From Peronospora farinosa (Eukaryota; Oomycota; Peronosporomycetes; Peronosporales; Peronosporaceae), in contig CANTFK010000986.1 of NCBI GenBank assembly GCA_947646735.1, positions 496,001 to 560,000 of the forward strand: a DNA stretch of 64,000 nucleotides, given 5' to 3'. The translations under genes and the position numbers were made by a program. Of this stretch, positions 3,712-34,560 are shown in pieces. The notes below the pieces were generated by a model. The model ran no database searches. It saw only the letters and a program-made list of their open reading frames with translations, and was not told the origin of the DNA. The stretch's first letter is position 1. Every line of letters begins with the position of its first letter.

Positions 3712-5247
3712 ATGAAGGCCTACCATGTGACGAGCTCAATGGCCTTCGATATAAAGGAGTGCTACAGTCAGGACGAACATTGTCGCCTGCTGTTGGATCA
3801 ATTTAGTGGGCGAAAGATTACCCTTCCGTCGCACTTGAAAGCGAAACTAAATCGCTTTAGTTACAGTGATGGCCTGTTATGCCATCAACTGTCACCTTGT
3901 GACCCCTTGAGAATTTATGTCCCTCATGACACAGATCGCAAGCTAATGATACTTCACGAGTGCCATGATGCGCCATTTAGTGGGCATCAGGGCCGTGAAA
4001 AGACATTCTTACGAGTGTCAAAAGAATTTTGTTGGCCACACCTATATCGGTGGGTGGCCAACTATATTCGCTCTTGCGAAGAGTGTCAGCGCATTAAGCC
4101 TGCACCTTCGAGCAGTGCGCCACTAGAGCCAATGCCGATTCCGACTGAATGCTGGAAGTCGGTCAGCTTGGACTTCATGTTTGGCTTACCTCCTGACCAT
4201 AAAGGCAGGGCGGTGCTCGTTGTATTTGTAGACAAACTGAGCAAGATGGTTCATTTTGCACCATGTATCACCTAGATTTCAGGAAAAGAGGCTTCCCTCT
4301 TGTTTCTGGGTCACGTGTATCGACTACACGGGATGCCCGAGTCCATAAAAATCGTACCAGGATCCGCGTTTTACGTCGGGTTTTGGCTTCATATTTTTAA
4401 GCTTCTGGGTAGGAAGCTCCACATGTCAACAGCCGGTCATCCCCAGACCGATATCCAAACGGAACGGGTCGTTCGATTTGTGGCGGATGTGTTGCGTACT
4501 GTAGCGACTCCTAAGGAATGGAGCAAGCAACTGCCATTCGTGGAGTTCGCTATTAATAACAGTGTTCACGCCAGTACGGGTGAAACACCGTTTTATATTG
4601 ACGGACTGCGCCATCCTCGGACGCCAGTCTCGTTTGTGCGCATCCCGAGTCTTAGTGGGGGAGGGCCCCTCACTTCGCCCGGTGCGAATGCCAAAGAGGG
4701 CCAAGGTTGCCATAGTGGCACTGCTAGTTTAGCAGGGGTCACGGTGTCAATGAGGAGGCACGGCAAGAAGTGCCAGTGCTACTAGACGATGACTCTACAG
4801 CGTTATCAGCAGCGTCGACCATTGACCTACCTCTTGGGGGTGTCATTGGCGAGCTGGATGCTAAGAGCGTGAGCGAAGCTCAGCGCTTTGTGGATGAGCG
4901 ATTAGCCATCACACGTAAAGTCCGTGACGCGATGGCAAGCGTACAGGACAAGCAAAAACAATATGAAGACCAGCATAGTTGCAAAAACAATGAACACTTA
5001 AGTGTGGGAGACAAAGTGCTATTACGTAATGCTGACCTACCTAAACATGCAATTTCTGTACTACCTGGTGGTACTACTAAGTTATGCCTCGATTCATTGG
5101 GCCCTTTACAGTGGTTGAAGAAGTTGGAGACCTAAATTATAGGCTCACTCTCCCACCGTATATGAAGACGCACCCCGTATTTTACGTGGGTCGTCTGAAA
5201 CGGTATGTTGATCCAGAAGAGATCACATATCCACATCGGTCTAACTA
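3712..5247 (+). pseudogene. E1 integrase remnant with GPF segment
   Basis: The N-terminal H2C2 zinc domain (His-Asp-Ala-Pro ... Cys-Glu-Glu-Cys) is readable at about 3950-4100. The core follows, with the first catalytic Asp in Leu-Asp-Phe-Met-Phe (about 4168). A stop at 4273-4275 breaks it. In the second part (4300-4785) the segment that should hold the second catalytic Asp is changed and the motif is lost, while the His-Pro-Gln-Thr-Asp region remains. The C-terminal part (4770-5135, then about 5090-5247 in another frame) has a Phe-Ile-Gly-Pro-Phe block, the GPY/F module of Ty3 integrases. Integration activity is impossible for this copy. Confidence 0.85.
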
Positions 5248-6757
5248 GATCGATGGTGACGTCGACTGTGAGTCGAGCGTCGCGGCCGATCAGGCGACGA
5301 GGAAGCCGAGAGGCTCTCTGTATAAAAACAAGGCGATAGAGGACTCGGCGATCGAGGATGACTCCGCGCTTGACGCGTGTCTCTCATCACCAGTCGCTCT
5401 AAGATGTCCGAACGGGTCTTCAGGCGGTCATACCCCTGACGGTCCATCGTCCTCACATCGCGCAGATCCACAGTCAGTCGTGAGACTTGACTCTCGAGAT
5501 CTGCACCTGCCTCTTCAGCGCAGCGGACTCAGCTTGCGACTGAACAGCAGCAGGGTAGGCAGCCGCGAGTAGGTGGGCGTAATCGCCACTCCTATCAGGC
5601 GCCACCTGTGTTGGTGTACAAGGAAGGGAATACGCGCTTCCTTGTTGGAAGGCTGTTGGCCCACCGGTTTGTAAAGCGAAAGCTCCAAATCCTTGTCCAA
5701 TGGAAGGGTTACCCAACGAGCTTTGACTCGTGGGAGCCTGTGGACGCTTTGCGCGTCGACGTGCCTGGGCTGGTGGCTGCTTATGTGAATCAGCGCCAGC
5801 TGTCTTCTTTCTGCTAGGTCCGGATGGACTAGCAGAAAAAGCGTGGTGAGAATCAATTGAGGGTCGCTTGCCACCCAAGATTTCATGCGCACGCTTCATG
5901 GCGAAGTTGATTCGCTGCGATCGTTGTTTCGTTGCATCTACATGCAACTTTACACGGCGCCGAAGTTCAGCTTCATATTCGTCGGCTGTTTCGTTAGAAC
6001 GCAGCACGACTGGAATTGGGAAAGCACGACCAAGTGCTTTGCCCTGCTTTTTCCACAAGGGAAAGACGCTTTAAAAAGTATAAGCGTCCACTCTGCAAAA
6101 GCGCTGCGCTAGACCCATCCGAGTTCATCCACTCAGATGGAGGTGGCATTGGTGGCAAGCCACCACTCACGTAGCCGCCCTCGCGACGGCGTGCTAGTGA
6201 GACCGACTGTGAAGTCGCAGGGGCTTTTTTCTCACCCTCGCCAGAGTCTGACTCTCCATTATGGATTGTCAAGACGTCAGATATAGGGTTTACTTAGGCA
6301 GTCGATCTAGAATCCCCGACCTGCTGTTGAGTCGCGGCTGTTTCTATCGAAGCAGCTCGCTCAGTTTGGTCGTTGCGCTCGTTGGCGCAGACGACGAGGC
6401 ATGACCCTCGCTGTCAGGAAGCATGGAAGCTTCCTGAAGGCTGGGTGCCTCAAATGGTGGGGACATATGTACCATCAATGCCTGTGCTCATCACCACTTT
6501 AAGGTGATGACAATAGTGTACTCTTATTGTAGTCAACAACGAGAGACAAGTCTTCATCCACACCATATTGGGATGGACCAGTGTTCTCTGCTGGCAAGCT
6601 GACATTTAAATGTCGGCGTTGTCACAGAGACACTTAGCGACGACTGCAGATTATCCCGGTGCGTGAGCTTGGCTTTGGTCTGCATGGGAGCCTTTGCAAG
6701 CGACCCATCAGCCTTACCACGTTTCGGTGGCATCTTCTCGTTGTCGATGTTTTTCAT
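5227..6757 (-). pseudogene. E1 antisense gene: coiled-coil, Ser/Arg-rich
   Basis: On the strand opposite E1 pol, a decayed reading frame starts just inside the 3' LTR (Met at about 6757) and can be followed through frame changes: 6757-6554, 6272-5994, 6058-5474 and 5471-5241. The 194-codon block 6058-5474 is rich in Arg, Lys, Ala and Gln. Its last codons are followed, after a one-base frame change, by a heptad-like coiled coil (Leu-Lys-Arg-Gln-Val-Gln then Leu-Glu-Ser-Gln-Val) and a Ser/Pro/Arg-rich tail. The 3' half overlaps the chromodomain of pol. I recognise no family. Position, polarity and composition match antisense frames in E2, E3 and E4. It could be a chance open frame, but the pattern in four elements argues against that. 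Confidence 0.5.
5590..5817 (+). pseudogene. E1 chromodomain (end of pol)
   Basis: A short chromodomain closes pol. It has a basic beta strand, then Leu-Val-Gln-Trp-Lys-Gly-Tyr-Pro and Asp-Ser-Trp-Glu-Pro, the aromatic cage and Trp-Glu-Pro motif of this fold. Chromodomains in Ty3 integrases bind chromatin marks and steer insertion. It lies in a different frame from the preceding integrase end, so it is disconnected in this copy. It overlaps the antisense reading frame of 5227-6757 on the opposite strand. Confidence 0.8.
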
Positions 6758-6770
6758 AATGAAAAAATCG

Positions 6771-6788: not shown

Positions 6789-7740
6789 TGTAACGGGCGA
6801 AAGTTACGCGGTTCGTTAAGTATCAAATACTTAACGGGCAGGCCTAAACGGGTACAAGGTACCTTAGGCATGCCACTTGGGTGCGGCAACCACCCTCATG
6901 AATGTGATATCCATGAATGGATTCACATTCAACGATGATGACGCCAGTTGGGACTGGGCGTCATGTTGACGCTTTAAACAGGAATCACCTGCGAGCTTAA
7001 ATATATTTTAAGCTCGCACGTAAGGATACGCTTTTAAAGAGACGCGTACCAATCTTTTATATTTGACAAATCATTATTTAATCTTATATTTAGCTTAAAA
7101 TCTATAAATATAAGTCAGTCTTGAATCTACTAAACATCGCACACTGCGCACGAGAAGCTGTATAAGCTTCTGCGTGTCGTAAATGTAGCTCTTGTCTTAG
7201 CGTTTCGCTGCGCGTTTCGCTTCAAAGCGACCGGCAACAGTTTGTACAGCGCTTTTCAGCGCCGAATAACACCACCACCACCGCATGCGGAGGCAAGACG
7301 GTCTAACCGCTTCCTTGCGCTGCTTGAAGGTGTGCCCGCGTAGTACGTGGCAGCTTCTTTATGAATTGCCCGTCTGAAAACACCCTATCAAACCGCTGCG
7401 GTTAAGATGCTCATATAAACTACTTCGCACCGTCGGAACGACAGGTGAACACCCTAGCAAAGTGCTGCGTTCAAATGCCTATATATACTACCTCGCACCG
7501 TCGGAACGACGGGTGAATACCCTAGTATATATATTTACCTACCTTGTCATCATCATTCTACACATCGAATCATCTCTCAGTTTTAATTAGCGATAGCGTG
7601 AGCAACTTTTCATAATCAGCGTGGTAGCATTGGAATAACTCTGGATAGCCGGTTTAAGATCACGGACCGTCATCAAACCAGGTATCCTTCAATACTGCTG
7701 CATTCGCGCACAAGGGTGTGGGAAAGGTTACGCAAGATTA
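6789..7740 (+). repeat. E1 3' LTR (outer end unresolved)
   Basis: It starts TGTAACGGGC, the same terminal pattern as the E2 and E3 LTRs. No second copy is visible, so the end is not proven; a terminal inverted match GGTTAC near 7723 is a candidate. Inside it, two imperfect copies of a roughly 68-base unit lie side by side at about 7376-7445 and 7446-7515 (both contain CACCGTCGGAACGAC). Nothing protein-coding is seen. Confidence 0.6.
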
Positions 7741-7903
7741 TTGTATGAATAATTGATGAGAAACGACTCTTTCCTATTTAGAGAGATACCCTTCTCTTGT
7801 GTCCAGGGGGGTTATAATCGTTGCAAGAGGATGAATGACCTTTCTTTAAGAATAAATCGGTCTATCCGACAGTGATACAGTAGGCTTGGATGAAGCCTGG
7901 GGC
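7741..7903 (+). repeat. 163-base direct repeat, left copy, flush with E3 outer LTR end
   Basis: This stretch is about 95% identical over exactly 163 bases to 36456-36618. The left copy ends at the outer end of one E3 LTR, and the right copy begins at the outer end of the other. The left-hand neighbour is the E1 LTR region. The sequence holds no gene of its own; in the right copy it forms the 3' end of a reading frame on the - strand. Confidence 0.8.
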
Positions 7904-8349
7904 TTTAATGGGGCTATACTGATAACAGTATAGTCTACCTTCACTGATGACAGTATACGCAGGTGCCTCAAAACCTCTCTTACACAAGAGTCAGAGGAAG
8001 CTTTACTTCCAAACGACACGCTTAAAAGTAGAGGAAAAGAAAACTGTATATAGTATAGTTAACTATCTAATAAAACTAATCTGTCATAATATATGTTAAT
8101 TATATTAAACTACAACTATGTAAGTTGACAACTTGCCCTCCACTTATTGCGCGCGTCCATCGGCCCTTGGTCAGCGCGTTAGTTGATATGATGGCCCATA
8201 TCAACCAATCAGAGGGCATCTCCAACTTCAAGGAGATCTAGGGACAATATTATAAGAAAAGATAATATTGTCAAATATTATTACTTATAATAATATTTTT
8301 ATTGACACTTCATATAAGTGTCAATAATATGTAACGGGCTGACCCCCCC
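7904..8349 (-). repeat. E3 3' LTR (left)
   Basis: It aligns along its length with 36007-36455 but is far more diverged than the LTR pairs of E2 or E4. It lacks about ten bases near the outer end and carries a small insertion near the inner end, close to GTAACGGGCTGACC. The divergence marks E3 as the oldest of the nested set. Confidence 0.75.
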
Positions 8350-8481: not shown

Positions 8482-10077
8482 ATGCGCGTCGCTGCTAAGG
8501 CAGCTAAGAACTCGGCTGCACCCATGTGTGCAGCCGCTACTGAGGCTTCACAGCCTTAGCCAGCTGACACTAATGTGTTTGCTGGAAGTCAACATCAGCC
8601 CGTGATATTGACTTCCAGCCAACGCCTGTTGCAGGTTCACGTGGCGCTTCACCACGTGAAGATGTTGACCCAGAGTTAGTCGTTGACTACTCTGGTGAGT
8701 CAGATGACGCATCCGACTTAAAGCCATCTGTTCCTCTCTCGAGATCTCCCCGGGGTGTTGCTTCATCTTCGATCTCAACCATAAAGGGACCGTGGTACAT
8801 TGAGTGAAATAATGTATCGAGAAATGTTCGAGTCGTCTGATGAATCAGATGACTCGCTGAACGAGACGAGGGATAGTGACTTGGTTGGGGTCGGTAAGGG
8901 TGATGTCAGTGCTTCTACTGACATCAATGCACGTGGTGTCGGTACTTCTGTTGACACCACGCAGGAGGCTTTAGACCGCAACGTATTGCGTCTTGCTCCT
9001 GATCGCAAGCCCTGGATGTCATCTAAGCATCTGCTTGATCGTTGGTCTGGAAAGACCAATGAACGGTTCCCCATACCGTTGCTTGATGCGTCAAAGCTTC
9101 ACGGCCTTGATGCCAGTGCGAAGAAATTTCGCACTGAGAACGACTATTACATAGATGTGTTTCTTGAACATATGGCTCACACACGAAGCGTGAGGCTGAC
9201 TCGTTCCTCCAATTTTGGAACGTAGTTATCACCAACGTTTTAAACGTTGGGAAAGAGGCTTGGTTTCAAAGACTTTTTGCTAACCACAATAAGTTTGAGA
9301 AACGAAGCACGTCCGGTGCATGCTATCGTTTGCACTGGTTGTCTAGAGAGGAAGGTCTGTTATGCCTCACTTAGGGTGACCCTTGCCCGTGGTGCCTGAT
9401 CACCTCGTCAAGAGCGCCTAAGGAGGCGTACCTCCTTACTGAGCCCTGGTGGAGAGCTCGCATCTCTTCTGATGTGCGTGAAGGAATTGCTACTTTGCAA
9501 TCTCTTTACAAGCGCGATGGGCGCTCGTTTTTTCGATGGTCCTTCTTCACCATCGGGTGTCCCTTGTCGTACTGTTCGACAAGGCCGGTAACGTCGGCCA
9601 TCAGTTAAGCCCGAGGTTCCCAGCTATCCGCCGAAGGCGGATAGCCACGCCATCGGACGAGATAACTCGTCCGACGTCCCTTCACCTCGCGGTGACTTAG
9701 CAAGCTTTCCACGAGGAAGCGCTTCCCACCATGAGAGTCCACCAGCGGATCCGGTGGTGGAGGGAAAACCCTGTCCGATTCTTTCATCGGACTTGTCCGC
9801 TGAGTTAGACGGGTTTGCCCGTGTAACTCATGAGCTACGTTGTGGTGTTGATCACGAACGGGATAAGCGTCGCCGCTTAGAGGACATTGTGCGACAGCTT
9901 GGGTTTGACCATGAGAAGTATCGGGCAAACAATGCTGTCGCACTATTAGAGAATGAACGGCGACCTCATTCTCTAAGTAACGAGCTGGCGACAGCTCGTC
10001 AAGAGATCGTCCAATATCATAGATCTCATCTCTACACGACCAGGTATCGAATCTGGTTCGTGACAACAAGAATCTGA
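8482..10077 (+). pseudogene. E3 antisense gene: CxxC module plus coiled coil
   Basis: Opposite to E3 integrase/chromodomain, a decayed frame starts just inside the 3' LTR (ATG near 8482-8491) and can be followed with several frame changes to 10077. An acidic Ser/Asp block lies at 8800-8920. A Trp-rich helical segment at 9100-9370 continues in a shifted frame after 9195. A Cys-Pro-Trp-Cys pair lies near 9390. The last part (9754-10077) is a charged coiled coil. The order and the Cys-x2-Cys-containing segment resemble the antisense frame of E2 (15060-16457). The 3' end overlaps the chromodomain of pol. No known family is recognised and the reading is fragmentary. Confidence 0.45.
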
Positions 10078-11600
10078 AGGGTATTCTTGAGAGTAATGGC
10101 TATCTTCGTCGTTCGAAGAAACCGCGTACCCAATGTATGGTCGAAGAAACCCCACGTAAAACGTAGGATGCTTACGCATCCTGCGTGGCAGATCGATCGT
10201 GTATGCGTTGCCTCGGCGGCGCAATACACGGAATAAGTTGATGTACTTGGGCAACAATTTAATTCTGCCCACATTAGTCACTACGTGCTAAGGTAAGTTT
10301 ACTGTTGACAGTAAAACTAAATCAACTTCAATAATTGTCTGAGCATTTGCCCTCCCATTATTCTCTGCGTTTCGCTTTTGCTTGTCCACCGCTTCTGCGA
10401 TGGAGTCTTGCACAAAACGGACTACCGCTTCACGGGTCAGCAGGAAATCCTCAGCTGACTCGTTGCTTTTGTCTGCAGTGCATTGTGAATGCACTGCAGA
10501 GATATCGGTTACTAATTCAGCGAGAACATTACTGTTCTCACCTATGATACCTCGAGCGATGCTAATATCTTCAGCATCGTTATCAGTAAGAGAGTAATCG
10601 CTCTTACTTTCTTCCTCTTCACCGAAGTCGAATGGTACGACTTCGTTTACTTTCGCGTCGACCATAACGTCGTCGCGTGATGAGCAAGATCCAGATTGGT
10701 TCTCGCTCGAGCGAGTATCTACCCCCTTAAATTAGAGTCACCCTCTACTAAGGTGGGGACACGTGGATGGCGAAGGCCATTCACGTAGAATGTTGTATGC
10801 GTCGAGGACGCATGCACTGAGTTATTGATGGCGAATTCGACCATCGACAAAACTCACTACAGCTCGTAAACGAGTGGACGTACCCTCGAAGAATTTCTTC
10901 GAGGACTCTATTGGCACGTTCAGTCTGACCATCAGTTTCTGGATGGTCAGAAGTAGACATTGTGAGCCGTGTTCCAAGTGTTTGGAGCACGGAACGCCAA
11001 AACTCAGCCGTGAACCAGGGGTTTTATCGGACACAAGTTCACGGGGTAAACCGTGAAATCGAAAGATTGTATCGATAAACACTCGAGCACATCCCTCTGC
11101 TGTGATCGACTCAGGTACAGCGACAAGATGTACCATCTTGCTGTACCTGTCCACAAACATGAGAATACCATTATTCCCGTGAGCGTCTTTGGGAACCCAA
11201 AGACGAAGTCCATTGATATGGACTCCCAACACTCTGCCGGAACAGGTAGAGGCTGCAATGGTGCACGGAGTGAAGGACTAGGCTTCACTCGTTGACACAC
11301 CTCGCAAGCACGCACGTACTTGCGCACAAACCTATACTGGCGTGGCCAGTAAAAGTCGCGACTGACCTTGAGGTAAGTCTTCTCACGGCCGCGATTCCCA
11401 CTTATTGGTGCATCGTGACATTAAAACATGATCCGTAACCTGAGATCATGTTGTGGCGGTACAACGACACGAGGCGTGTCGTTGTTGACGGCTGTGTAGT
11501 ACAGTAAGCCGTCCCGCTGGGTGTATCGATCGAGAGAAGATCAATACATGGCAGGCAAGCGCTTCTTAGCTTGCGTGGATGGGTCCTTGAGGTACTAGTT
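9605..11600 (-). pseudogene. E3 integrase, GPF linker and chromodomain remnant
   Basis: Reading leftward from about 11600: the RNase H-integrase linker, the H2C2 zinc domain (His-Asp-Ala-Pro ... Cys-Glu-Val-Cys, about 11420-11290), and the core with Met-Asp-Phe-Val-Phe (about 11200). The next acidic position is damaged (Val-Ser-Asp-Lys-Thr-Pro). His-Pro-Glu-Thr-Asp-Gly-Gln-Thr-Glu follows at about 10935. A linker (10665-10288), a Pro-Thr-Phe-Tyr-Val-Gly-Phe-Leu segment (about 10170) and a chromodomain with Trp-Arg-Gly-Tyr-Pro and Ser-Trp-Glu-Pro (9739-9605) complete pol. Frame changes split it. The block starts abruptly at about 11600, where + strand gag begins, marking an inversion breakpoint. 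Confidence 0.8.
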
Positions 11601-14643: not shown

Positions 14644-14981
14644 TGTAACGGGGCTAGAACGTACCGTCACTAGCTTACACGTGCGCTTGAGGAAGACTCA
14701 AGCCCAAGTATTAGATTTTAAGTAAATTTAACTCTGATTTTTATTTTGGTTTTAATTCGTACTAATTACGAAGATTTTAGTCGTAATAAATACGACAGTG
14801 TTCCCGCCTTTCGGGAACCACACAATTTCAGGTTGATTTATCATTGGTCCATATTGGGGACTTTAGGCCCAATAATAAACCAATAATAAATTACCAAGCT
14901 GTGCCCGCTATTCGGGCCCAGCACCTGCCTACATATGTAATTGTTTATTCATATGAATACTATGTAATGTAGCCCATTACA
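14644..14981 (-). repeat. E2 3' LTR (left)
   Basis: It begins TGTAACGGGG and ends CCCATTACA on the + strand, a short terminal inverted repeat. On the - strand it is preceded by the polypurine run GAGAAGGGGGTGA (14982-14995). It matches 22101-22438 except for three positions (two near the TATTAG/GTATTA segment and one in the AATAA run). Confidence 0.9.
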
Positions 14982-15059
14982 TCACCCCCTTCTCATGACA
15001 GCGTTCACCAACCGTGAGCGCTCAACTGTCGAAAACCTTCGCCTACAAACGAACAAGCA

Positions 15060-16457
15060 ATGTCCGGAGACCCAACACCCAGTCCAGCAGCACTCCCAAG
15101 GAACGTCAGCGGGAGTGCATCAACCAACATCATGGCGCGGCAGCTCATACCTTGGTCGCTGTACGACTTGTCCGGAGCTCACGCTCCGGACTCACTGGAC
15201 ATGATGCGGGACTACTTCCGCCGATTTCGAAAACTGCGCGGGAAAGGTCTTGATGGAATCGAGCATGAAGCTCTACAACGTTCTTGGTGAGCCTTCATCC
15301 AACGTTGGAATCGGATGCTTGAAGATGGTAGCAGCTTTCAGTTATGGCTCGCCAATAGAGAGGAACTTCGCGCTGATCACTCCATCGGCGCGCTACGCGA
15401 AAGAGTGTGTGAGGATGCTTGGAATGAGGACCGTCTCTGCTTCGTCCATGTCAATGAAGGATGCCAATCTTGTGACTCGACTCCACGCCCAACTCATGAC
15501 GAATAACGACGACACATCGCTGAGTGTCCACTCAGTGATCGCGAACGAAGTTGGATTGCGAAGTATGAGCGAAGTCTGGGCGAACGGAGAAGCGCAGTTA
15601 TTCGTGGTGCGCCCCGCTGGCGGCACCACTAGCGACAGCGGAGTCGATCTCCGCGGGATCATCAGCGCAGGGCAGCGACACGTTCGCCTGCCCGTCCAGT
15701 TGCGCGATTCTCGCCTCGCAATCGTGATATGTATTCACCGCGACATTCTCGATCACGGCATCGATCTCGTTCGCGACATCGTTTGCGTTCGCGACATCGT
15801 TCTCGTTCGCGTCATCGTTCTCGTTCCCGACGACGTGGATCTCCTTATCGCTCTCGTTTGTCACGAGAGCGATCGCGTGCTCGCCCGCCTTGGAATAGTC
15901 CGACTTCGTGGATTCATACGACAGAACCACATCTGGAACGTCACGAAGGAGCGAGGAACGTGGTTCCCATGTATCCTGCTCGGGAGGGAATCCAAGCCAA
16001 CGTAATCGGTACCTACGCGCGGGTGGAACCGCACGCTTCTCATGAGCCGACTGCAGTAAAGGTTGTGGAGGGTCCTCGTGATCCACAATGCGGTCTACAA
16101 TCCATCGCACCTGTCCCTCCGCATCAACAAGCGGAGGAGGGCCCTCGCGGTGGTAGAGCTGGCGTCCTGGTTGCTCAGGACGATGTTGATCAGGCCGTGA
16201 ATATAGCTGCCGATGCTCGGCTGGAGGCTGAGGCTGCCAGTGAACGTGCTGCCCAGGCGGAGAAGACTTCGAGTGAGAACCGGCAGTCGAACCGTGAACT
16301 GCTCGAGCGGATAAGGATTCTGGAGCGCCAGATGCTTGGTCAGGTTCAGACGGGATCGAGACCCCGCCCCATGTCATCGACGCGTCAAGCACGACGGGAA
16401 GGCCGTTCGACTTACGAACCCCTGAAGCCGGCGTCGGAGCCAAACCGTGAAACGTAG
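15060..16457 (+). pseudogene. E2 antisense gene: CxxC module, RS-repeat region, coiled coil
   Basis: A single + strand reading frame of about 466 codons runs against pol with only three stops (TGA 15288, TAA 15504, TAG near 15630), so it was open recently. It starts about 80 bases inside the 3' LTR. The order is: a Trp/Arg-rich helical N-terminal part with a Cys-x2-Cys pair (about 15470-15485); an Arg-Ser repeat region (about 15729-15890) similar in composition to splicing-factor RS domains; a middle segment; and a coiled coil with an Ala/Glu-rich heptad pattern (about 16190-16340). The last third overlaps the chromodomain of pol on the other strand. The family is unknown. It resembles the E3 antisense frame in order and in the Cys-containing segment. 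Confidence 0.55.
15598..16443 (-). CDS. E2 chromodomain end of pol
   Basis: An open frame of 281 codons follows directly after the integrase stop, in another frame. A Pro/Ser/Gln-rich tether leads to a chromodomain: Val-Asp-Arg-Ile-Val-Asp, then Tyr-Arg-Leu-Arg-Trp-Leu-Gly-Phe-Pro and Asp-Thr-Trp-Glu-Pro-Arg (about 16100-15930). After the chromodomain the frame becomes low-complexity (Asn-Glu-Asn-Asp repeats), the complement of the Arg-Ser repeats of the antisense frame, so the true end is probably just after the chromodomain. Whether it is joined to integrase by frameshifting or is simply broken is not clear. Confidence 0.65.
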   Translation of the reverse strand: MAPTPASGVRKSNGLPVVLDASMTWGGVSIPSEPDQASGAPESLSARAVHGSTAGSHSKSSPPGQHVHWQPQPPAEHRQLYSRPDQHRPEQPGRQLYHREGPPPLVDAEGQVRWIVDRIVDHEDPPQPLLQSAHEKRAVPPARRYRLRWLGFPPEQDTWEPRSSLLRDVPDVVLSYESTKSDYSKAGEHAIALVTNESDKEIHVVGNENDDANENDVANANDVANEIDAVIENVAVNTYHDCEARIAQLDGQANVSLPCADDPAEIDSAVASGAASGAHHE

Positions 16458-16467
16458 CCGGACGATA

Positions 16468-17817
16468 TTACTTCAGCCGCTCGAAATAGAATGTCGGGTG
16501 GAGTCGCAGTGAAGAGGGGACGTCGTGTGTATAAGCGTCGCCAATTGCCATCAGAACCTTGAATGGACCGATGAAGCGTGGCGCGAGTTTACTCGCGCCC
16601 AGAATAGTGACCGCAGAATCCCTTAAACCTTCCGTCGATAATAATACATGGTCACCTTTCTCAAACTTGCTCATGTACTTTCTTCCATGTTTGTCAGCGT
16701 TCTCCTTCTGTTGGTCTACAGCAGTTTGTAGTGCGTCGCGCACAAAGCGGGTGATGGCTTGACGTTGGAGTATGAATTTCGACACGGCCATGTCATCAAT
16801 TGGTCGCGCCGACTCAATCGGCGCGTAGTTGGCAGTAGGTGAACGCTTACCCGAAGACGGGTCAATCAATGTCTGCGCAGTCCATCGAGCTAATGGGGAC
16901 GCCACGTCTGATGGCGTCAAAGTGGCCGTCTTTGCCTTGGATCGTGTTACTGAATTCGCGCTCAAAATACCGTGAGCTGCACTCGATCCTTGTTTATCAC
17001 CTTTATCACCCCCCAGAGTGGAGCCACTAGGTGTTGTGGGTCGCCCCACGGCCAGGACAGTAGGAACACGAGGGTGACGAGCCGAATTCACAAAATATGG
17101 CGTCAACCCTGTAGACGCGTGTACGGCGTTGTTGAGTGCGAACTCAGCGAGTGGTAAAAATGCACTCCAACTTGTAAATGACGTAGCATAACTCCGAAGA
17201 ACATCTTCGAGGACCCGGTTCACGTGCTCGGTCTGCCCATCCGTTTCCGGATGGGATGCCGTCGACATCAGCAGTTTTGTCCCGAGGAGCTCGAAAAGTG
17301 ATGTCCAAAATGCGGACGTAAATCGCGGATCACGGTCCGAAACTATGTTTTCTGGAAGGCCATGATGACGAAACACCGCGTCAATAAAGTGCGCCGCGGT
17401 CTCTGCCGCGGTGACCTTAGCGTGAACAGGCACGAGATGTGTCATCTTGCTGAATTCATCAACAAAAACCAAGATGCCCGTTCGAGCTTGGCTATCGGGC
17501 GCAAGCCCGAAGATGAAGTCCATCGAAACGGATCTCCAGGCCTCTGCTGCAATTGGCAACGATCGCAAAGGAGCCTGTGACGATGGTGATGGCTTCACAC
17601 GCTGGCATATTTCGCACGTTCGGATCCAGTTGCGTACCCACTTATACATGTGGGGCCAGAAGAATTCTCGAGACACAGCCGCGAAAGTCTTTTCGCGGCC
17701 TAAATGGCCGCCAGCAGGAGCATCGTGATACTCATGAATTATTCTTGCACGCAAATCCATGTCATTGGCAATCACCGTACGAGGAGAATCGAATTGGTCG
17801 ATGCTATACAGAAGCAA
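16468..17817 (-). CDS. E2 integrase
   Basis: An open frame of 449 codons encodes a nearly complete Ty3 integrase, which inserts the cDNA into the chromosome. In order: an H2C2 zinc domain (His-Asp-Ala-Pro-Ala-Gly-Gly-His ... Cys-Glu-Ile-Cys, residues about 30-75); the catalytic core with Met-Asp-Phe-Ile-Phe, Ser-Asp-Arg-Asp-Pro-Arg-Phe and the Glu of the Asn-Arg-Val-Leu-Glu helix, giving the D-D-E triad; a variable linker; and the GPF segment Phe-Ile-Gly-Pro-Phe (residue about 410). All three catalytic acids are present. The upstream RNase H frame ends nine bases before, so the Pol polyprotein is interrupted by a stop between them. Confidence 0.9.
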   Translation of the reverse strand: MLLYSIDQFDSPRTVIANDMDLRARIIHEYHDAPAGGHLGREKTFAAVSREFFWPHMYKWVRNWIRTCEICQRVKPSPSSQAPLRSLPIAAEAWRSVSMDFIFGLAPDSQARTGILVFVDEFSKMTHLVPVHAKVTAAETAAHFIDAVFRHHGLPENIVSDRDPRFTSAFWTSLFELLGTKLLMSTASHPETDGQTEHVNRVLEDVLRSYATSFTSWSAFLPLAEFALNNAVHASTGLTPYFVNSARHPRVPTVLAVGRPTTPSGSTLGGDKGDKQGSSAAHGILSANSVTRSKAKTATLTPSDVASPLARWTAQTLIDPSSGKRSPTANYAPIESARPIDDMAVSKFILQRQAITRFVRDALQTAVDQQKENADKHGRKYMSKFEKGDHVLLSTEGLRDSAVTILGASKLAPRFIGPFKVLMAIGDAYTHDVPSSLRLHPTFYFERLK

Positions 17818-17826
17818 ATCGCCGTC

Positions 17827-20982: not shown

Positions 20983-21026
20983 CGGGGGACCCGGACCTCC
21001 GTTCCAACCAGTAGGGCGCCCTGCAC

Positions 21027-22074
21027 CTACTGGTCCCGACCGTTTTTTGGACGTGCGGCCGGTACAGCACCCTCATGATGGGCGTCCACTACTTGCACTG
21101 ATAATGGGGCTGGCGCACGGCACTCTGCCGCGCAATGTCCTGGCTTGCGACAACGAAAGCAAACCATTGGACGCCCGGTGCGAGCGTCACCTTTATGATG
21201 AAAGACACGTCGCCGGTCACCCGACGACTCAATAACGTCGATCTCCATAGGTCTGGACCAGAAGGCCGGGTAACGGTGACGACCGAGGGTTTGGCATATG
21301 CCTTTGTGACCCTAAAGTATTCACGGAGTGCGATGGCAAATGCCTCCTCCAATGTGGCAGGCTCGGCGCGCTCCAGCGATAAGCGGGTCTGCCCCTCACG
21401 CATACCATCCACAAAGACATTCACCTGCGTGTACATGTCCATGGGGTGCTGATAATACACGACGCCAGATGCCTAGCCATCTGTACGTAGTCGCGCATCG
21501 CCATTTTACCCTGTCGCATCGACAGGAATCTTGATCGCACCAGTTTCTCCTCTTGTGGTGGCTCGAAGGCAAGACGGAGATCGTCCTGGATGGTATCCAA
21601 GGTGGAGAATGCGTGCTCGTCCACAACGAGCTTACCAAGGGCCCACTCCTTGGCCTTCCCGGTGAGGCGGGAAAGAAGAAAGTTGACCTTCACCTGTGGA
21701 GCCTCAAGAAGTCTTGAGGCGATGGCGATATCAACTTCTCGGAACCACCGATTCAGCGATAACCGGTCCTTACCTTCTCCTGAGATGGAGGAGGTTTCTA
21801 TCTTCACGGCCTCATTACGTGAAGGTCGCGAGGGAGTTAAGCCTCGCCGGTTGGATTCGGCGAGCTCGCGTGCCATAAACTCATGTATGGCGAGACGTTG
21901 AGCATCAGGGGTCGCTGATCTCATCAGCGACGCGACGAATGCCTCTCCCGATATCGCCGCGAGGCGATTAAGGGCATTCCACTCAACACCAGTAAGATGG
22001 GGGAAGGTCGCGTGCTCCAGAAATAAATCTGGAGCGTCAAAGTACGACGATTTGCTCATCCCAAACTCGGGCAT
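21027..22074 (-). pseudogene. E2 gag with CCHC knuckle
   Basis: It begins with ATG at 22074, 26 bases inside the 5' LTR. An N-terminal helical part is followed by a capsid-like domain with [11 protein letters not shown] and Phe-Glu-Pro-Pro (residues about 135-180). The first frame ends at 21421. The rest continues in the overlapping frame 21460-21089 and the last part in 21248-21027, with a C-x2-C-x4-H-x4-C knuckle (Cys-Phe-Arg-Cys ... His-Cys-Ala-Ala-Glu-Cys, about 21165-21125). Two small frame changes therefore interrupt an otherwise well preserved gag. Confidence 0.85.
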
Positions 22075-22100: not shown

Positions 22101-22438
22101 TGTAACGGGGCTAGAACGTACCGTCACTAGCTTACACGTGCGCTTGAGGAAGACTCAAGCCCAAGTATTAGGTATTAAGTAAATTTAACTCTGATTTTTA
22201 TTTTGGTTTTAATTCGTACTAATTACGAAGATTTTAGTCGTAATAAATACGACAGTGTTCCCGCCTTTCGGGAACCACACAATTTCAGGTTGATTTATCA
22301 TTGGTCCATATTGGGGACTTTAGGCCCAATAATAACCCAATAATAAATTACCAAGCTGTGCCCGCTATTCGGGCCCAGCACCTGCCTACATATGTAATTG
22401 TTTATTCATATGAATACTATGTAATGTAGCCCATTACA
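22101..22438 (-). repeat. E2 5' LTR (right) and primer site
   Basis: This is the partner of 14644-14981. On the - strand its inner end is followed by CC and then TGGTAGCACTTAG (22087-22098), a primer binding site beginning with the TGG that pairs with a tRNA CCA end. E3 has the nearly identical TGGTAGCACTTCG next to its 5' LTR, so both lineages use the same tRNA type. Confidence 0.85.
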
Positions 22439-22443
22439 TTATC

Positions 22444-22984
22444 AAGCAAAGCTTGATGCATTCGCCAGTATTGGCGATTGCCGATCAAGACAGACCATTT
22501 CATGTGGTCTGTGACGCCAGTGATTTTGCAATCGGCTGTGCACTGATGCAATATGATACAGACGGCGCAGAGCGTGTCGTCTGTTATCAATCGCGTCAGC
22601 TGCAACCGGCTGAGCGCAATTACCCGGTGCATGACAAGGAACTCCTTGCCATGAAGTATGCACTGGCCAAGTTTCGCGTCTATCTCTTCGGAGATAGACC
22701 GTTTATAGTGTATACAGACCATGCGTCATTACGCACGGCTGTAAACAGTCCACATATCTCGCAACGAATGGCGAGATGATTGTCGTTATTCGCGGAGTAC
22801 AACTTCTCCGTGGAGTATAAACCGGGACGACTTAACCTTGTCGCCGATGCTCTTTCACGTCGGCCTGACCTAGAGCAGACTGTGCGATCCGGCAGTGATG
22901 TGAACACCACTGTCTCCACGCTGAGTACCAGCGTCTTGTCGTCTATTTTACTCGACGACATTAGAATGACATGCGCACAAGATA
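22444..22984 (+). pseudogene. E3 RNase H (inverted block, right of E2)
   Basis: Pol of E3 resumes here in the frame left at 14643. The RNase H landmarks are Val-Val-Cys-Asp-Ala-Ser-Asp-Phe (about 22500-22523, first catalytic Asp kept), His-Asp-Lys-Glu-Leu-Leu-Ala, Tyr-Thr-Asp-His-Ala-Ser-Leu, and, after a TGA at 22777-22779, the tether ending Leu-Ser-Arg-Arg-Pro-Asp (about 22870). Coding continues to an Asp-Ser-Asp-Leu-Val segment near 22985. There the expected integrase linker is missing, because the inversion breakpoint is reached; the linker is found instead on the - strand at about 11590. Confidence 0.85.
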
Positions 22985-23062: not shown

Positions 23063-24301
23063 TGTGGCGAAGCGAAAGAGTGAAGTTGGTAAAGTGTGAT
23101 CACATATTTTTGGTTAAGTCCGAAATGTCCAATATGGATGAATCGCGATCCCGCAGAAAAAGTTTCGAGATGATGGAAAATGGATGGAAAAAAGTGAATG
23201 GTGGAGTTCGCAGTTCTATGTGGAGTTAACTATGGCCTAGAAACTACGCAATTGCGATCTCAGGTATTTTTCGATGGTGACCCGCGTGAACGCGATCGCT
23301 AAGAAGGAGGATTGGTACATCCAAGTATGTGGAAGACGGTCTGGTGTGGATCACGTCGCTATACAATACTGGAATGAGGTGGACATGACATGTCATATAG
23401 ATGTACCATCTCACATTACCCGAGGAACGGTGAAGAGGACAAGTCGTGATTCGGCGGACCGCGATCCGATACTAATTGTTAGTACCGCGATCCGATACTA
23501 AAATAAGTACCGCGATCCAATACTAATTATTAGTACCGCGATCCGATACTAATTATTAGTACCGCGATCCGATACTAATTATTAGTACCGCGATCCGATA
23601 CAAAAAATGGTATTAGATCCAATCGAGGTAGCGATCCATCCAGATCGCGGCGATATTGGAGTGGACCACATTACAAGATCTGATTTTTTGAAAGGGCGAT
23701 ACGTGGCAATAGATCCTGAGCTACAGATAGGCAAGATCATAGGTTTTGGTATTTGATTAGTTAACATTAAACAGAGTTCAATTTGCTTCTAAGTACACGT
23801 GTCGACTTCTCTATTCCGGGAAGGATATTTGGCCTCCTGACGCCGAGACTATCGACTACAAGTGCACCCTGGATTGTTTTGGCCAGGTGAAAGAATTCTT
23901 AACACAACAACTCAACTGCTATTGGACGCAGAAATAACAAGTAAGGGCAAGGAAAGCAAGTGCAGAACGGATCAAGTGGTCAGAATGTTCTGCTCAAGTG
24001 GTCAGAAGATTCAAGCTTCGCCTTATTGGACTATTGGGATCTATTGGTACGATCAACAAACAAGTGCTCGGTCGATCTTGTAAAGATTTCCACAAGATCA
24101 CCAAAGCCCCTATCCCTAACCCGATTAGGATCAACATCGACTCAAGTCCACCGAGAGAGCAACCCGCCCTACCGACGGGTACACAAGGTGAGGAAGGCTA
24201 TATACACGGAATCGGGGTACCCCCTCCGTTTGTCGGTCGCCTGGGCGCCAGTGGAGACGTTGGAATCGCATCAGCAATTTTGCGAATCCCACTCCACCAC
24301 A
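23063..24301 (+). repeat. E4 5' LTR with primer binding site
   Basis: It starts TGTGGCGAAG and ends CCACCACA. The primer site TGGTGCGCGTGCCCGGA starts at 24303; its complement (CCGGGCACGCGCACCA) has the form of a tRNA 3' end, but the tRNA is not named here. A 26-base unit (TAGTACCGCGATCCGATACT...) is repeated about five times at 23457-23603, with irregular copies differing from the right LTR. No gene is seen inside. Confidence 0.9.
23457..23603 (+). repeat. 26-base tandem repeats in E4 LTR
   Basis: About five copies of a unit containing CCGCGATCCGATACTAAT lie head to tail. The matching array in the right LTR is at 34985-35132. The two arrays have diverged internally (for example AAAATAAG versus TTTAAGC) while keeping the same total length. 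Each unit contains two GATC or GATAC steps. Confidence 0.85.
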
Positions 24302-29687: not shown

Positions 29688-29696
29688 GTCGATGAA

Positions 29697-31318
29697 GTGT
29701 TGATCGCGATCGCTTCCCGGAAACAGCCAAGGCAAACTCTAAGTATGCCACCTCCTACGGTGGAAGAAGATGAAATTCTCTTGGTCGTTAGTTTCAATGG
29801 ATCGGCACGAACCAAGGGAAAGGGTGGATCATACAGTGCGATAATATGGAAACTTCCTGAGTGGACTATTGTGTCTGCTGCATCGGAATATGCAACGGAT
29901 TTAACAGTGAACGAAGCCGAATATCGGGGTTTACTATTAGGTTTTGATCTATTGGAGAATCAGACTAGGGGACGCGTTATCAATTGTGGCGACTCCAACC
30001 TAGTGATTCGACAGATGCGGGGTAAAATCGATTGCAAGGCTCCTGGACTGCAGTTGTTGCGACAGAAAGCAATAGAGAAGCTTCGATCATGGCCGATCCA
30101 TGAGTTCTTACATATGAAGCGCGACTGGAACCAAAGTGCAGATCGACTGGCAATTACTGCTTTGCAGAAGGAAAAAGGTGTGATCATCACTTCGAAAGAA
30201 GATCGCCAAGATCTCATTACTCTTAATAGGCTGGATGAGCTGTTGAAGTCGAAGCAGAATGAATCGGTGGTTAAAGTTGCTGCGATTACCAGATCAACCC
30301 GGAGAAGACGTCAACCACCCGAGATTTTGCAAGAAGAATTTGTGCAGCAAATGCGAAGTGAACGTATACGACAAGCTCAAGATGAGGAATGTCGGATCGC
30401 TAACCTAAATATTTTTCTGATTGGTGATATAACGAATCTCAGCATGGAAGAAGCGAAGTCATGCGCCAAGATTGCAAGTAATTACGAAGTGGATGAGAGT
30501 GATCTTCTATTTTTCTGCCCGAGAGCTGTGAGAAATTCGCAAGATCGTGATGAAATTGCTCGTTTGGTGGTACCAGAAACTCTTCAGCAAGATTTTCTGC
30601 ATCACTACCATGCCAGTTTGGAAGGAGGGCACCAGAAAATCTGTAGGACGTATCAACGGATCAGATCTCGTTTTCATTGGAGAGACTTGTATCGCAGTGT
30701 ACAGCGATATGTGAGCGAATGCACTGACTGCGAAACTGGAAAAAGACGTCCTGTTATTAGTATAGAGACGCCGGGAAATTTACAAGCTACTTATCCATTC
30801 CATATTATTGCCATGGATCATATTCCATCGCTGCCTAGATCTTTAACGGCAACACTGTATTATTGGTCTGGGTCGATCTATTTTCGGGCTATGTGGTTGC
30901 CAAGGCGAGCAAGTCTAGAACGGCTCAGACGATCGCCGAGAATTACGAGGAGTGTGTCTTTCGACGATTCGGTGCGAGTGAAGCGATACGGCACGATCGG
31001 GAACCTGAATTATGTCGTATTTTTTTCGTGCGTTCAATCGACTTATTGGGCAAAAGCAAAGAGCGACTATGGCATATCGCCCTCAAGCAAATGGGACTGC
31101 TGAACCATTGTCCAGAAATTAACCCGAGCGTTGAAAATGTACGTCTCGGACGTCAATATGCTGAGCGGTTGACATTAGCGATAAACACTGCCCAAGACCG
31201 GGTACGTGGAGACACCCCTTTTTACTTGATCCACGGATGGGATCCTCGATCTACGTTGGAAGCTACGTTGCCACTGGGAAGTACTCAGCCACGAGATCGA
31301 GAACCTCGCAGATGGTGA
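29697..31318 (+). pseudogene. E4 second RNase H fused to integrase
   Basis: The 468-codon frame 29697-31103 begins with a second RNase H of the cellular/archaeal-like type: Ser-Phe-Asn-Gly-Ser-Ala (the family has Asp in place of this Asn), Asn-Glu-Ala-Glu-Tyr-Arg-Gly-Leu, Gly-Asp-Ser-Asn-Leu-Val and Asn-Gln-Ser-Ala-Asp. An extra RNase H has been reported in plant Tat elements and in some oomycete Ty3 elements. Integrase follows, with the H2C2 zinc domain (His-His-Tyr-His ... Cys-Thr-Asp-Cys, about 30600-30735) and Met-Asp-His-Ile-Pro. A frame change near 30860 moves the core into 30863-31318 (Val-Asp-Leu-Phe-Ser-Gly-Tyr), and the third acidic region is damaged. Confidence 0.85.
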
Positions 31319-31468: not shown

Positions 31469-31963
31469 GTGAAGGAAGGATTTCCTCGAAAATTAGCACA
31501 TATGTGGCATGGACCTTTTCGAGTGAGTGAAGTGTGTGGTGATCACGCTGTTTGCCTGGAGATCGCTTTCACGCCGTATCGATTATTCCCGATCGTGCAT
31601 ATATCCAAGCTGAAATGTGTAAAAGTATCTCCCGACCGCCCGAAGCAGTTGTTGACGGTGGAAGAAGAAGATCGTTTTGATTTCGACGAGGCACTTCTGC
31701 CGGAGGATAGCTGGGAGCGGCAACTTAGAGATAACGAGTTTGAAGTGGAGAAGATTGCGGATATGCGATCCGGCAGAAAAACTCGTTTTGGACGGGTGCA
31801 TCGTCAATTTAAGGTTTACTGGAAGGGTTATACCGATCCATCGTGGGTTGATGAAGCGGATCTAAATTGTGGGGCATTGTTGCAGGAATTTGAGCGCGAA
31901 CAAGCTCGCCGTAATCGTTTCGAAATTATGCAGTCTCATGAAGAGGAAAAAGCTGAAGATTAG
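31469..31963 (+). CDS. E4 integrase C-terminus and chromodomain
   Basis: An open frame of 164 codons. The first part has His-Met-Trp-His-Gly-Pro-Phe-Arg-Val (a GPF module, residues about 10-20) and Pro-Ile-Val-His-Ile-Ser-Lys-Leu-Lys. The second part is a chromodomain: Phe-Glu-Val-Glu-Lys-Ile, then Phe-Lys-Val-Tyr-Trp-Lys-Gly-Tyr and Pro-Ser-Trp-Val-Asp-Glu, in place of the usual Trp-Glu-Pro. A stop near 31446 separates it from the integrase core. The domain is intact and likely bound chromatin when made as part of Pol. Confidence 0.8.
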   Translation: MKEGFPRKLAHMWHGPFRVSEVCGDHAVCLEIAFTPYRLFPIVHISKLKCVKVSPDRPKQLLTVEEEDRFDFDEALLPEDSWERQLRDNEFEVEKIADMRSGRKTRFGRVHRQFKVYWKGYTDPSWVDEADLNCGALLQEFEREQARRNRFEIMQSHEEEKAED

Positions 31964-32493
31964 TGAATTGGTTGTTTCGCTTATGGAGAGTGGAAATGGC
32001 TGTACAAGATGGTTGTATAGCTGGGGGAACTAGGATATATGTGAATATGAGTGTCGATCGAAGGTCTGAAAGACCATATCGCGGCTGAAAAGGCCCAAAA
32101 ACAAGAAGACAATTGCAAGAACGACCAGAAGAATTAAACGAAAACAGTGAAATTGTATTGAATGCTGAAGAAATGAAATCGGATCGCGAAGTGCTACTCC
32201 AGATCGGATCGCGAGAAGTTACTTTGGAAAAAACTTACCGGTCAGACGAGGGATCAGCGATACCAGGTAATCTTCAATCGAAATTCGATACTGGTTTCTC
32301 CACGGCTAGGCAGAGTCCAACATCGATAGCGCGGTGGACAGGTTAGGCATATTCTGCTTCTCACACTCCAGACCAGGATACCATGGTCGCACTTCTGCGT
32401 ACACTGGAAAGTGAAGAAAGCAAGTATCCAACAAAATGTACAGATCGCAGTGTCCTTCGATCATCCCTTGGAGAATAACGCGAAGAATAGTTT

Positions 32494-34560
32494 TCAGCGG
32501 GGTCCAGATCTCGATCGACGCTGTTTGCGGTGTAGACAAAATTGCGCTAGCTCTGGATATTCCTTCCGATGTTCACGGGAGATATACAGGAAGTGGGTTG
32601 CCTCCCACAAGGCTTGCCGATGTCGATCTTCATATTCGAGATAAATCGATGTCAGATCTTTAAACCAGCCGGTCATAGGAAAGAAGATGGGAGTAATCGG
32701 TCGACGAGTGACGTTCCACGGTTCCTGATCGTAAAGCGCAGTAACTTGTGCCGGGGTAATCAGTCGGGGAATCCACTCAGAATCAAGAAGAGACTTAAGA
32801 TTAGCTTTTGAGGAGTGAAGGGATACCCTTTCGGTCGGGACAAGTGTCGATAGAAAAACTCCACTCCCAATTCCGCAACACTGGTCAGATTGACCCGTCG
32901 AGCGCACCATGGAGCAACCTAAATCGACGATGGGGGTTTTCGCTCACAATACTATGAAATTATGCAAAACGTGATTCTTGGATATCCGGCAGATCGGCGT
33001 ATTGAGCGGGAGTGTGCAACGGGTATATACTTTCGCGAGTGTCACTGGAAATGCTAATTTTTTCGTCCGGGTCGCTAGAAGGTTCGCCAAAAAGGTCGAC
33101 CTTGGAAATTTTAGCCGTAAGGCTAGGAGGCGTATCGGGATTCAAGACTGGTGATTTTCTGGATGGTGGGCTACCATTGTGAATTATGATAGGAGACTGA
33201 GACGATTCGGTGTTGCCAAAGAGTTTCGTCACGGTGGTGCGAAGCCTCGCGGTTGAACGCGATCCGGAGAGAGCAGCAAGTGTAGTGTCTTCAGGATCGG
33301 AAGACCATCCGTCATACTCAGAGTCAGGCGAAGGTGAGGGACAAGCTTTGCGTTTCCCTTTGACTTTCGACGGAACATTGGGTTGCGTTGTAATACCAGA
33401 TAGCGCCGGAGTACCTGATCGCGCTGAAGTATGAGAATGCGTCGAAGTACCAGATCGCGTCGTAGTACCAGATCGCGCCGGAATTTCAGATCGCGCCGAG
33501 GTACTAGATGGAGTAGAAGTACCGGAAGCGCTGCGGGGACGTTTGCAGGAAACGTCCAGAGTCGGTAAAGATGATGCACGTTTGCGATTGGGCGACGAGG
33601 GATTGGAAGACGTGTGAAGGCTGGTCAGAGAAGGAAGTAAGCCCGTGGCCAACTTTGCCAAATGCGAACGAATTAATACTAGATCCTGGATGGCCAGATC
33701 GTGTTCCGCCTCTCGATCTGCAACTTCGGTACGAAGTCGACTCAAGGCTGCGTCGTTCCGAATACTCGCACTCAGGAGGCGATCATGATCAAGCTCGAGC
33801 GCGCTCAGCGTGTCTTGTAGTTGTTTCGCAGTTTGCTGGGCCTGAGAGCGAGCTTTCTTGTACTTAGACGCCTTGCTTTTCATGCGTTTAAAGTCATCAG
33901 CCAAAGTACTGTCTGCAGCATTACGCTGTGCGAAGATGGAATACAGTTGCTGTTGAAGGGACGCGATCTGCTGCCGAAATTTTCTTTCCAGAGATCGCTG
34001 AAGATTGGCCACCTCACGGCGGAATTTATCCTGCAGGCGATGTTTCTCTGCATTGGCCCGAAACAAGGCATTCTTTAGATCCGCGATCTCTTGAGACTGA
34101 TCTGTTAGCTGGTTCAGTTCTTGGTCGAGATCTTCGGCCATGTTGACAGCGGTGTCAAGTTGTTCACGAAACTCTTCATCTCGACGCAAGACGAATGTGC
34201 ACAGTCGAGGCACCAACTCGTGATACGAATTGAATTCCGTATCCAGCTAATTTCCACGAAATTCTTGCTTCTGCAAGGCAATTTCCATGGAGTGGTAACC
34301 TTCCACGATGGTATCTTGGGCTTCCAGGCGGTTATAAAGTGAAGAGATTAACGAGATCGCGGTTTGACGATCCGTAACGGGAGGAAGTATTTCCCAGTAG
34401 ACGCGAGCAAGATACGCGATCCGGTAGAAGAATTCATCGGTAGATCGAGCATGACGAGCACACCAGTTCGGGAGTGGCGATCGTTTTCGGGTGGAGATCT
34501 GGCCATAGAGGACGAAGTGACGAGAAGGGAGAAACGAGACAATGCACAGCTAGGCCAACA
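32494..34560 (-). pseudogene. E4 antisense gene with 418-codon coiled-coil frame
   Basis: On the strand opposite pol, between chromodomain and 3' LTR. The upstream part (34560-34250, decayed) leads, after a TAG near 34247, into an open frame 34246-32960. That frame has no in-frame ATG near its start. Residues about 10-190 form a long coiled coil rich in Gln, Arg, Glu and Leu. Residues about 195-290 are a Ser/Thr/Arg/Pro-rich region with repeated Thr/Ala-Arg-Ser-Gly-Thr units (about 33400-33520). An acidic Ser-rich tail follows. A further block at 32910-32494 is rich in Trp, Tyr and Arg. The family is not recognised. The frame stays open while sense gag and RT of the same element are broken. 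Confidence 0.6.

Follow-up and report, generated by a model that had tools for sequence, protein, structure and literature searches.

A stretch of 64,000 nucleotides from the genome of the oomycete Peronospora farinosa (contig CANTFK010000986.1, positions 496,001 to 560,000; hereafter the window) contains four Ty3/Gypsy retrotransposons, E1 to E4, each of which carries a frame on the strand opposite pol. E2 and E4 are bounded by long terminal repeats (LTRs), with the pol of E2 on the minus strand and that of E4 on the plus strand; E1 and E3 are more degraded, and no settled LTR pair was obtained for either. An earlier note on this DNA had placed the antisense frames at 5227-6757 (E1), 15060-16457 (E2), 8482-10077 (E3) and 32494-34560 (E4), and their strand and position were confirmed. 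It had also taken them for genes. Long open reading frames (ORFs) do occur in copies of the same families, but all four window copies are dead and none is an intact gene: stop codons interrupt the noted span and frame 18 times in E1, 3 times in E2 and 8 times in E3, and for E4 there are 15 stops in the frame read from 34560 and 11 in the frame that holds an open stretch of 428 codons.

The genome (46.85 Mb in 274 contigs) was searched with pieces of each antisense frame as queries. This revealed at least 147 matched places for E4, 143 for E2, 150 for E1 and 150 for E3. Since several rows can be pieces of one copy, those judged to be second pieces of a copy already entered were left out. In this way, 75 of the 147 E4 rows, 141 of the 143 E2 rows and all 150 listed rows of both E1 and E3 were entered as copies, together with 90 of 97 rows for the E4-like pol, 49 of 93 for the antisense gene of the L072 type, 150 of 151 for the E3 integrase and all 150 listed for reverse transcriptase (RT); one omitted L072-type row (contig C132, at 186) may be a separate copy.

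Among the matches listed, the longest antisense frames have 973 codons in the E4 family, 519 in E2, 537 in E1 and 657 in E3. Such lengths are not confined to single copies, as frames of at least 900 codons were found in 15 of the 75 E4 copies, of at least 460 codons in 51 of 141 for E2, of at least 480 in 34 of 150 for E1 and of at least 560 in 17 of 150 for E3. A sublineage related to L072 has stop-free frames of 742-754 codons at three places, with 47-49% identity to L072. When seven long antisense ORFs were each subjected to 200 dinucleotide shuffles and read in six frames, the longest chance ORF was 328 codons. As the family ORFs reach 519-973 codons, the antisense frames are more than a product of chance.

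Orientation of the antisense frames and element anatomy

Antisense places were then paired with the places of RT or integrase found on their contig. For E4, pol was present within 6 kb of 44 of the 75 copies; in 43 cases the two were opposite and converging, and in one (contig C70) they shared a strand. For E3, an integrase was present within 3 kb of 118 of 150 copies, and all 118 pairs were opposite and converging; this pairing with E3's own integrase replaced that with the shared RT table, which had given 8 neighbours, 2 of them opposite and converging. The RT table used for E1 and E2 covers the 150 RT candidates scored out of 2,281. A listed RT lay within 6 kb of 49 of the 141 E2 copies (47 opposite and converging, 2 opposite but upstream). 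Of the 20 E1 copies, among 150, that had a listed RT in range, 16 face it in converging orientation at 2,984-3,095 bases, 2 have it on the opposite strand but upstream and 2 share its strand. For the L072 type, pol was found within 6 kb of 10 of 49 copies, every time opposite and converging. Many copies have no listed pol (31 of 75 for E4, 32 of 150 for E3, 92 of 141 for E2, 130 of 150 for E1 and 39 of 49 for the L072 type), partly because 150 of the 2,281 RT candidates were scored.

The same association was seen from the side of pol. Sixteen E4-like pols have at least 1,800 codons: 12 converge within 6 kb with an antisense place of the E4 type and 2 with one of the L072 type, 1 is the L071 element, in which the gene is present, and the last, on contig C253, lay outside the comparison. 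In the E4 family, where a pol of at least 1,800 codons has an antisense frame nearby, the latter reaches at least 850 codons in 10 of 12 copies, against 0 of 20 where pol is shorter than 1,000 codons. This joint retention of long pol and long antisense frames may also reflect the age of the copies.

The anatomy of an E4-type copy with long frames was read as two stretches, L069 and L070. In sense order, an LTR is followed by an ORF that measures 836 codons from stop to stop and weakly matches Retrotrans_gag (E 0.0014, below the cut-off), then by the pol frames and finally, on the other strand, by the antisense ORF. The pol of this copy contains protease, RT, RNase H, a second RNase H (PF13456), integrase and chromodomain. 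In L069, the domains PF17917/PF17919, PF13456, PF17921 and PF00665 follow each other in this order; the chromodomain match (PF00385, residues 1551-1602, E 2.9e-4) has 21.1 bits for a cut-off of 25.1, which the window E4 copy passes with 29.3 bits. According to the main text of PMC5348765, the Chronos group of oomycete Ty3/Gypsy elements likewise combines two RNase H domains (Ty3-type and aRNH-type), an integrase and a chromodomain. By this domain make-up E4 appears Chronos-like, PF13456 being equated with aRNH by family only. Since separate sense ORFs with the weak gag match and with pol are present, the antisense ORF as the gag of the element was ruled out for this Chronos-like copy.

In L069, the antisense ORF ends at 3943 and the pol stop lies at 4127, so that about 180 bases separate them without overlap, and in L071 and L072 the antisense ORF is likewise clear of pol. 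Overlap with the chromodomain end of pol was observed in E1-E3 only. The pol stop of E2 falls at antisense codon 210 of 496, and about 190-200 antisense codons of E1 and E3 (counted by eye) overlap pol; the E1 chromodomain was recognised by eye in an E1 relative. The earlier account of frames that end near or over the chromodomain is thus to be qualified, as the E4 relatives have no such overlap.

At the other end, the first antisense ATG of the E4 type lies about 86 bases from the 3' LTR; the ATG known from relatives corresponds to position 34506 in the window, 86 bases from the LTR. Upstream of this ATG, at the LTR end, a pyrimidine-rich tract noticed by eye resembles a polypurine tract read from the complementary strand. 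In the E4-type loci L013, L071 and L073, the interval from the LTR boundary to the ATG also contains a block like CAYATACAGTGYTGG, seen by eye to be conserved, the L071 version of which starts GCATACAG; the same block is at 34555-34569 on the minus strand of the window. It is a candidate 5' untranslated or promoter element.

Selection on the antisense frame

The earlier note had set purifying selection outside pol as a test, and such selection was found, with strong evidence for the E4-type (Chronos-like) lineages and moderate evidence for E1-E3. In the C-terminal domain, L013 and L071 could be compared over 208 codons without a stop, with proportions of nonsynonymous (pN) and synonymous (pS) differences of 0.338 and 0.730 and an amino-acid identity of 50%. 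The differences were distributed 78/61/131 over the three codon positions, and in the other five frames 7-18 codons contained stops. Stops were likewise absent when L013 was compared with L072 (242 codons, pN 0.463, pS 0.759) and L071 with L072 (155 codons, pN 0.562, pS 0.815). For the window E4 copy against L013, the ratio of nonsynonymous to synonymous rates (dN/dS) was 0.457 with one stop codon set aside (binomial p 3e-5), compared with 0.87-1.07 in four other frames.

For the other families, dN/dS outside pol was 0.43 for the window E3 against L075, 0.56 for the window E1 against L074 and 0.49 for E2 over 30 copies, the E2 alignments having been built from the 30 loci L039-L068. Variants shared among E2 copies comprised 22 nonsynonymous and 15 synonymous changes (p 0.02).

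However, several observations weigh against the antisense frame as the constrained one. The minus frame that shares its third positions gave similar ratios throughout (0.459 for E4, 0.34 for E2, and 0.61 and 0.54 in the two comparisons for E1 and E3), and its stops alone set it apart from the antisense frame. The E3 relatives L075 and L076 gave a dN/dS of 0.88 with each other. Inside the pol overlap, the antisense ratios of 0.77 (E2), 0.86 (E3) and 0.63 (E1) indicate little constraint. Furthermore, most listed copies of the antisense frames are broken, those of L073 and L076 among them; L071 has a frameshift after the compared part, which puts the last stretch of the domain in another frame, and L072 has no clear start codon. 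Due to the similar ratios in the minus frame, the 0.88 pair, the weak constraint in the overlap and the broken frames, the evidence for E1-E3 was graded as moderate.

The antisense position, the orientation, the retention of long frames in part of the copies and the purifying selection are thus observed features of these elements. The case that oomycete Ty3 elements carry a real antisense gene under selection is strong for the E4 type and moderate for E1-E3. As for the retained function suggested earlier, it is the retention of the antisense gene that selection outside pol supports.

These results leave little room for a spurious frame, kept open without any protein by composition and by the constraint that the coding of pol imposes from the opposite strand. 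About 190-290 codons do overlap pol in E1-E3, and an E2 frame offset by one base (from 15205) is also long, with 266 codons, although it was set aside as TGA interrupts it in many of at least 144 copies. However, the E4-type ORF lies outside pol, shuffles do not exceed 328 codons, the homologous compared parts are stop-free in three pol lineages and the E1-E3 signal is present in the part outside pol. For the E4 types, clear of pol, above shuffle length and stop-free between lineages, this explanation was rejected; taken over all four families, we consider it very improbable.

Window elements and their surroundings

The features located in the window are collected in Table 1.

Table 1. Features of the four Ty3/Gypsy elements in the window
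Feature	Position	Strand	Remark
E1 integrase zinc domain	3703-4275	+	
E1 antisense gene, broken	5227-6757	-	family ORF up to 537 codons
E3 antisense gene, broken	8482-10077	+	family ORF up to 657 codons
E3 chromodomain (partial)	9611-9715	-	overlapped by antisense frame
E3 integrase zinc domain	11007-11420	-	
E2 3' LTR	14644-14982	-	
E2 antisense gene, broken (3 stops)	15060-16457	+	family ORF 460-519 codons in 51/141 copies
E2 pol 3' end	15598-16467	-	stop codon at 15598
E2 chromodomain	15913-16104	-	overlapped by antisense frame
E2 pol: integrase	16468-17826	-	
E2 pol: protease and RT	18520-21072	-	
E2 5' LTR	22101-22439	-	
E4 5' LTR	23063-24301	+	
E4 pol piece: second RNase H (PF13456) and integrase zinc domain	29688-31103	+	
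E4 chromodomain (PF00385)	31739-31897	+	
E4 antisense gene, broken	32960-34506	-	coiled coil, Ser/Arg-rich part; homologous ORFs up to 973 codons elsewhere
E4 open stretch of 428 codons inside broken antisense gene	32960-34246	-	
E4 3' LTR	34592-35830	+	99.0% identical to partner 23063-24301

Positions 7740-7904 match 36455-36619, and 7914-8326 match 36027-36437, so that two related stretches contain the same halves in swapped order. The segments 7740-8326 and 36027-36619 may be the LTRs of E3, one of them rearranged, with E2 and E4 nested between them. In addition, an inverted pair (18119-18482 and 22463-22826) is 71% complementary across 364 bases. One arm lies in the pol region of E2 and the other just outside its LTR, and a second, older element fragment therefore probably adjoins E2. 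Beside the nested elements, the region 39722-57077 has Pfam matches to LUC7, leucine carboxyl methyltransferase, patatin with DUF3336, protein kinase and PP2A B56; these are likely host genes.

Elsewhere in the genome, contig C235 contains six segments of the E1 antisense part on one strand at a spacing of about 1,460 bases (starts at 7263, 8724, 10185, 11646, 13103 and 14563), as if this part had been amplified in tandem. RT places with near-equal scores occur on contigs C56, C198, C220, C229, C235, C240 and C248, many of them with frames of 1,384-1,387 codons; several are at most 50 kb apart on C248 and C240, and they belong to a separate element.

Antisense proteins and their possible role

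The four elements fall into two clades. Integrase identity is 54-58% among E1-E3 and 24-30% between E4 and E1-E3, in agreement with the two lineages distinguished in the earlier note. The antisense arrangement is common to both. E4-type antisense proteins match each other with E values down to 1.6e-58, and no convincing similarity between them and the E1-E3 proteins was detected by pairwise and profile comparison. Among the 21 pairs tested, the score of the best pair across the clades was reached by 9 of 1000 shuffles, that of an E2-E3 domain by 2 of 1000 and that of an E1-E3 N-terminal motif by 5 of 1000; hhalign gave P 0.013 and a probability of 3.4% for E2-E3. The E2-E3 and E1-E3 similarities are therefore suggestive. 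Lineages have probably also recombined, as L073 (C232:139000-143900) appears to be a mosaic: it has about 90% nucleotide identity to L069 over the end of pol and the end of the antisense region, and about 40% amino-acid identity in the N-terminal part of the antisense protein.

The E4-type proteins combine a long stretch rich in heptads with a part rich in Ser, Arg and Thr, and L013, L071 and L072 have a C-terminal domain in common. The E2 protein has N-terminal Trp/Cys motifs, RS-like repeats and an alanine-rich coiled coil. The coiled coil comes first in E4 and last in E1-E3. A coiled coil had been noted in all four; in a crude heptad test the score was reached by 3 of 500 shuffles for E1, 2 of 500 for E2 and 0 of 500 for E4, but by 45 of 500 for E3, where it is not clearly present. 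Clusters resembling a bipartite nuclear localisation signal (NLS) were found in three of four E4-type proteins (L013, L071 and L073).

An antisense gene at the 3' end is described for the plant LTR elements Grande and Retand, for Boty-like fungal elements and for retroviruses (PMC7264820, PMC11963269 and PMC8365987). The precedent of Grande named in the earlier note was correct, and Retand, Boty and HBZ belong alongside it. The plant genes of this class, aORF-3R (Grande gene23, RIRE2, Retand/TRP28), are long ORFs between pol and the 3' LTR that occur in most copies of a family and are conserved between species, with a function presented as unsettled (PMC7264820 and PMC11963269, in excerpt). 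Grande GENE23 is given there as nuclear and with its own promoter (PMC7264820). The ORFs described here occupy the same interval and, like the plant genes, run antisense to gag-pol. Unlike aORF-3R, the E1-E3 gene overlaps the chromodomain end of pol; unlike Retand, which belongs to a non-chromovirus lineage, the present elements have a chromodomain, and no match to PF04195 (TRP28/Transposase_28) was found in the scanned E1-E4-type antisense proteins. Boty-like elements of Botrytis cinerea carry an antisense additional gene, brtn (PMC8365987, which cites Zhao et al. 2011; named as well in PMC7264820). Both cases concern an antisense gene in an LTR element of a filamentous plant pathogen, the host of Boty being a fungus; the likeness is one of description.

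HBZ of human T-cell leukaemia virus type 1 (HTLV-1), a human retrovirus, is a coiled-coil bZIP nuclear protein that acts on chromatin, transcription or RNA. Its gene is antisense and under a 3' LTR promoter, as stated in the excerpt of PMC10186651. Pfam scans of the antisense proteins gave no bZIP family, and no homology to HBZ is claimed.

Searches of open-licence papers, including ones aimed at oomycetes, Phytophthora or Peronospora, brought up no account of such a gene for the LTR elements of oomycetes; their result lists ended at 8 to 20 papers and were judged mostly by title and the opening of the abstract. In the main text on Chronos (PMC5348765), 'antisense', 'additional ORF', 'opposite' and 'ORF3' do not occur.

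Our best explanation, with a probability of about 0.6, is that the four Ty3/Gypsy families carry a real antisense accessory gene encoding a nuclear, self-associating protein that acts on the regulation of the element itself. The gene lies antisense to gag-pol and fills the space from pol to the 3' LTR; in E1-E3 it continues into the chromodomain end of pol. Its transcription would start from an antisense promoter within the 3' LTR or next to it. The coiled coil, the Ser/Arg-rich linker, the NLS-like basic clusters and the E4 C-terminal domain suggest that the product is nuclear and self-associating. It may act on the chromatin, transcription or RNA of the element, as proposed for plant antisense ORFs such as Grande GENE23 and as HBZ does in HTLV-1.

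Several searches gave results that weigh against such a product. The NLS pattern was absent from the E1, E2, E3 and L072 proteins in the pattern scan. A Pfam scan of the E1-E4-type antisense proteins gave nothing over the cut-off, and the sub-threshold matches were to families other than bZIP, mostly coiled-coil. In the PDB, no match was found for the E3 and E2 proteins; a Plasmodium merozoite surface antigen (E 0.002), matched only through Ser/Thr-rich repeats, and the Rad50 coiled coil (E 0.06) were judged to be low complexity and rejected. No relative of the antisense protein was found among about 8,000 database proteins chosen by shared words and scored, a choice probably filled by low-complexity words, which makes this search weak for low-complexity proteins. 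The viral contigs matched neither the antisense alignment nor a pol relative. By comparison, the E4-type pol had 727 related proteins, of which 120 were listed; many are from Phytophthora and the best named ones from Peronospora and Phytophthora, so that oomycetes are represented in the protein database searched. Since no Pfam, PDB or protein match was informative, the nuclear role is read from composition. Finally, the oomycete Inr-FPR promoter consensus had 0 matches in the window.

Instead of a regulator, the protein could be a structural or import factor of the particle, such as a Gag-like chaperone or a factor for the nuclear import of the pre-integration complex. Long antisense frames accompany long pol frames, as expected of a mobility helper, coiled coils and basic stretches fit as well, and this role is discussed for plant antisense ORFs in the excerpt of PMC7264820. 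However, one would expect a structural protein to be made from the sense genomic RNA, and in the Chronos-like copy a weak gag match is found in a sense ORF of its own. We hold this role to be unlikely.

It is still less probable that the antisense RNA matters and not the protein, convergent transcription giving double-stranded RNA by which the element is limited or timed. Small RNAs in both orientations along Gypsy elements of Phytophthora infestans (PMC3522703, in excerpt) and antisense non-coding RNAs of other elements (PMC7264820, in excerpt) speak for it, but the protein-level constraint, the third-position excess and the stop-free 155-242 codons between lineages would be left unexplained. 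An RNA effect may nevertheless act in addition to the protein. The gene could also be a passenger, taken once in reverse orientation from the host or from another element. The absence of any Pfam or PDB homologue that reveals an origin would suit this, but a passenger would decay, while constraint is seen between three pol lineages and the gene is present in 15 of the 16 E4-like pols of at least 1,800 codons (the sixteenth outside the comparison), and this reading hardly deserves credence.

Returning to a selected accessory gene for a regulatory protein, we propose tentatively, and with somewhat less than even confidence, that antisense genes are a standing part of the chromodomain Ty3 elements of this oomycete, in two distant clades, in one of which the gene is written into the chromodomain end of pol and the same DNA codes on both strands. 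If this is true, a control locus resembling HBZ would be fixed in retrotransposons beyond those of plants and fungi, in another major lineage, and the E4-type C-terminal domain with its GWF, CDLDILLDP and PWR motifs would be a new protein domain. Because they are antisense inside repeats, such genes are probably often missing from annotation; pol has hundreds of database relatives, and for the antisense protein a search with little power for low-complexity proteins found none. One genome here offers hundreds of copies and several lineages in which selection, convergent transcription and the dual coding of the chromodomain are measurable. The conserved antisense genes in two distant Ty3 clades suggest repeated evolution and a benefit to the element.

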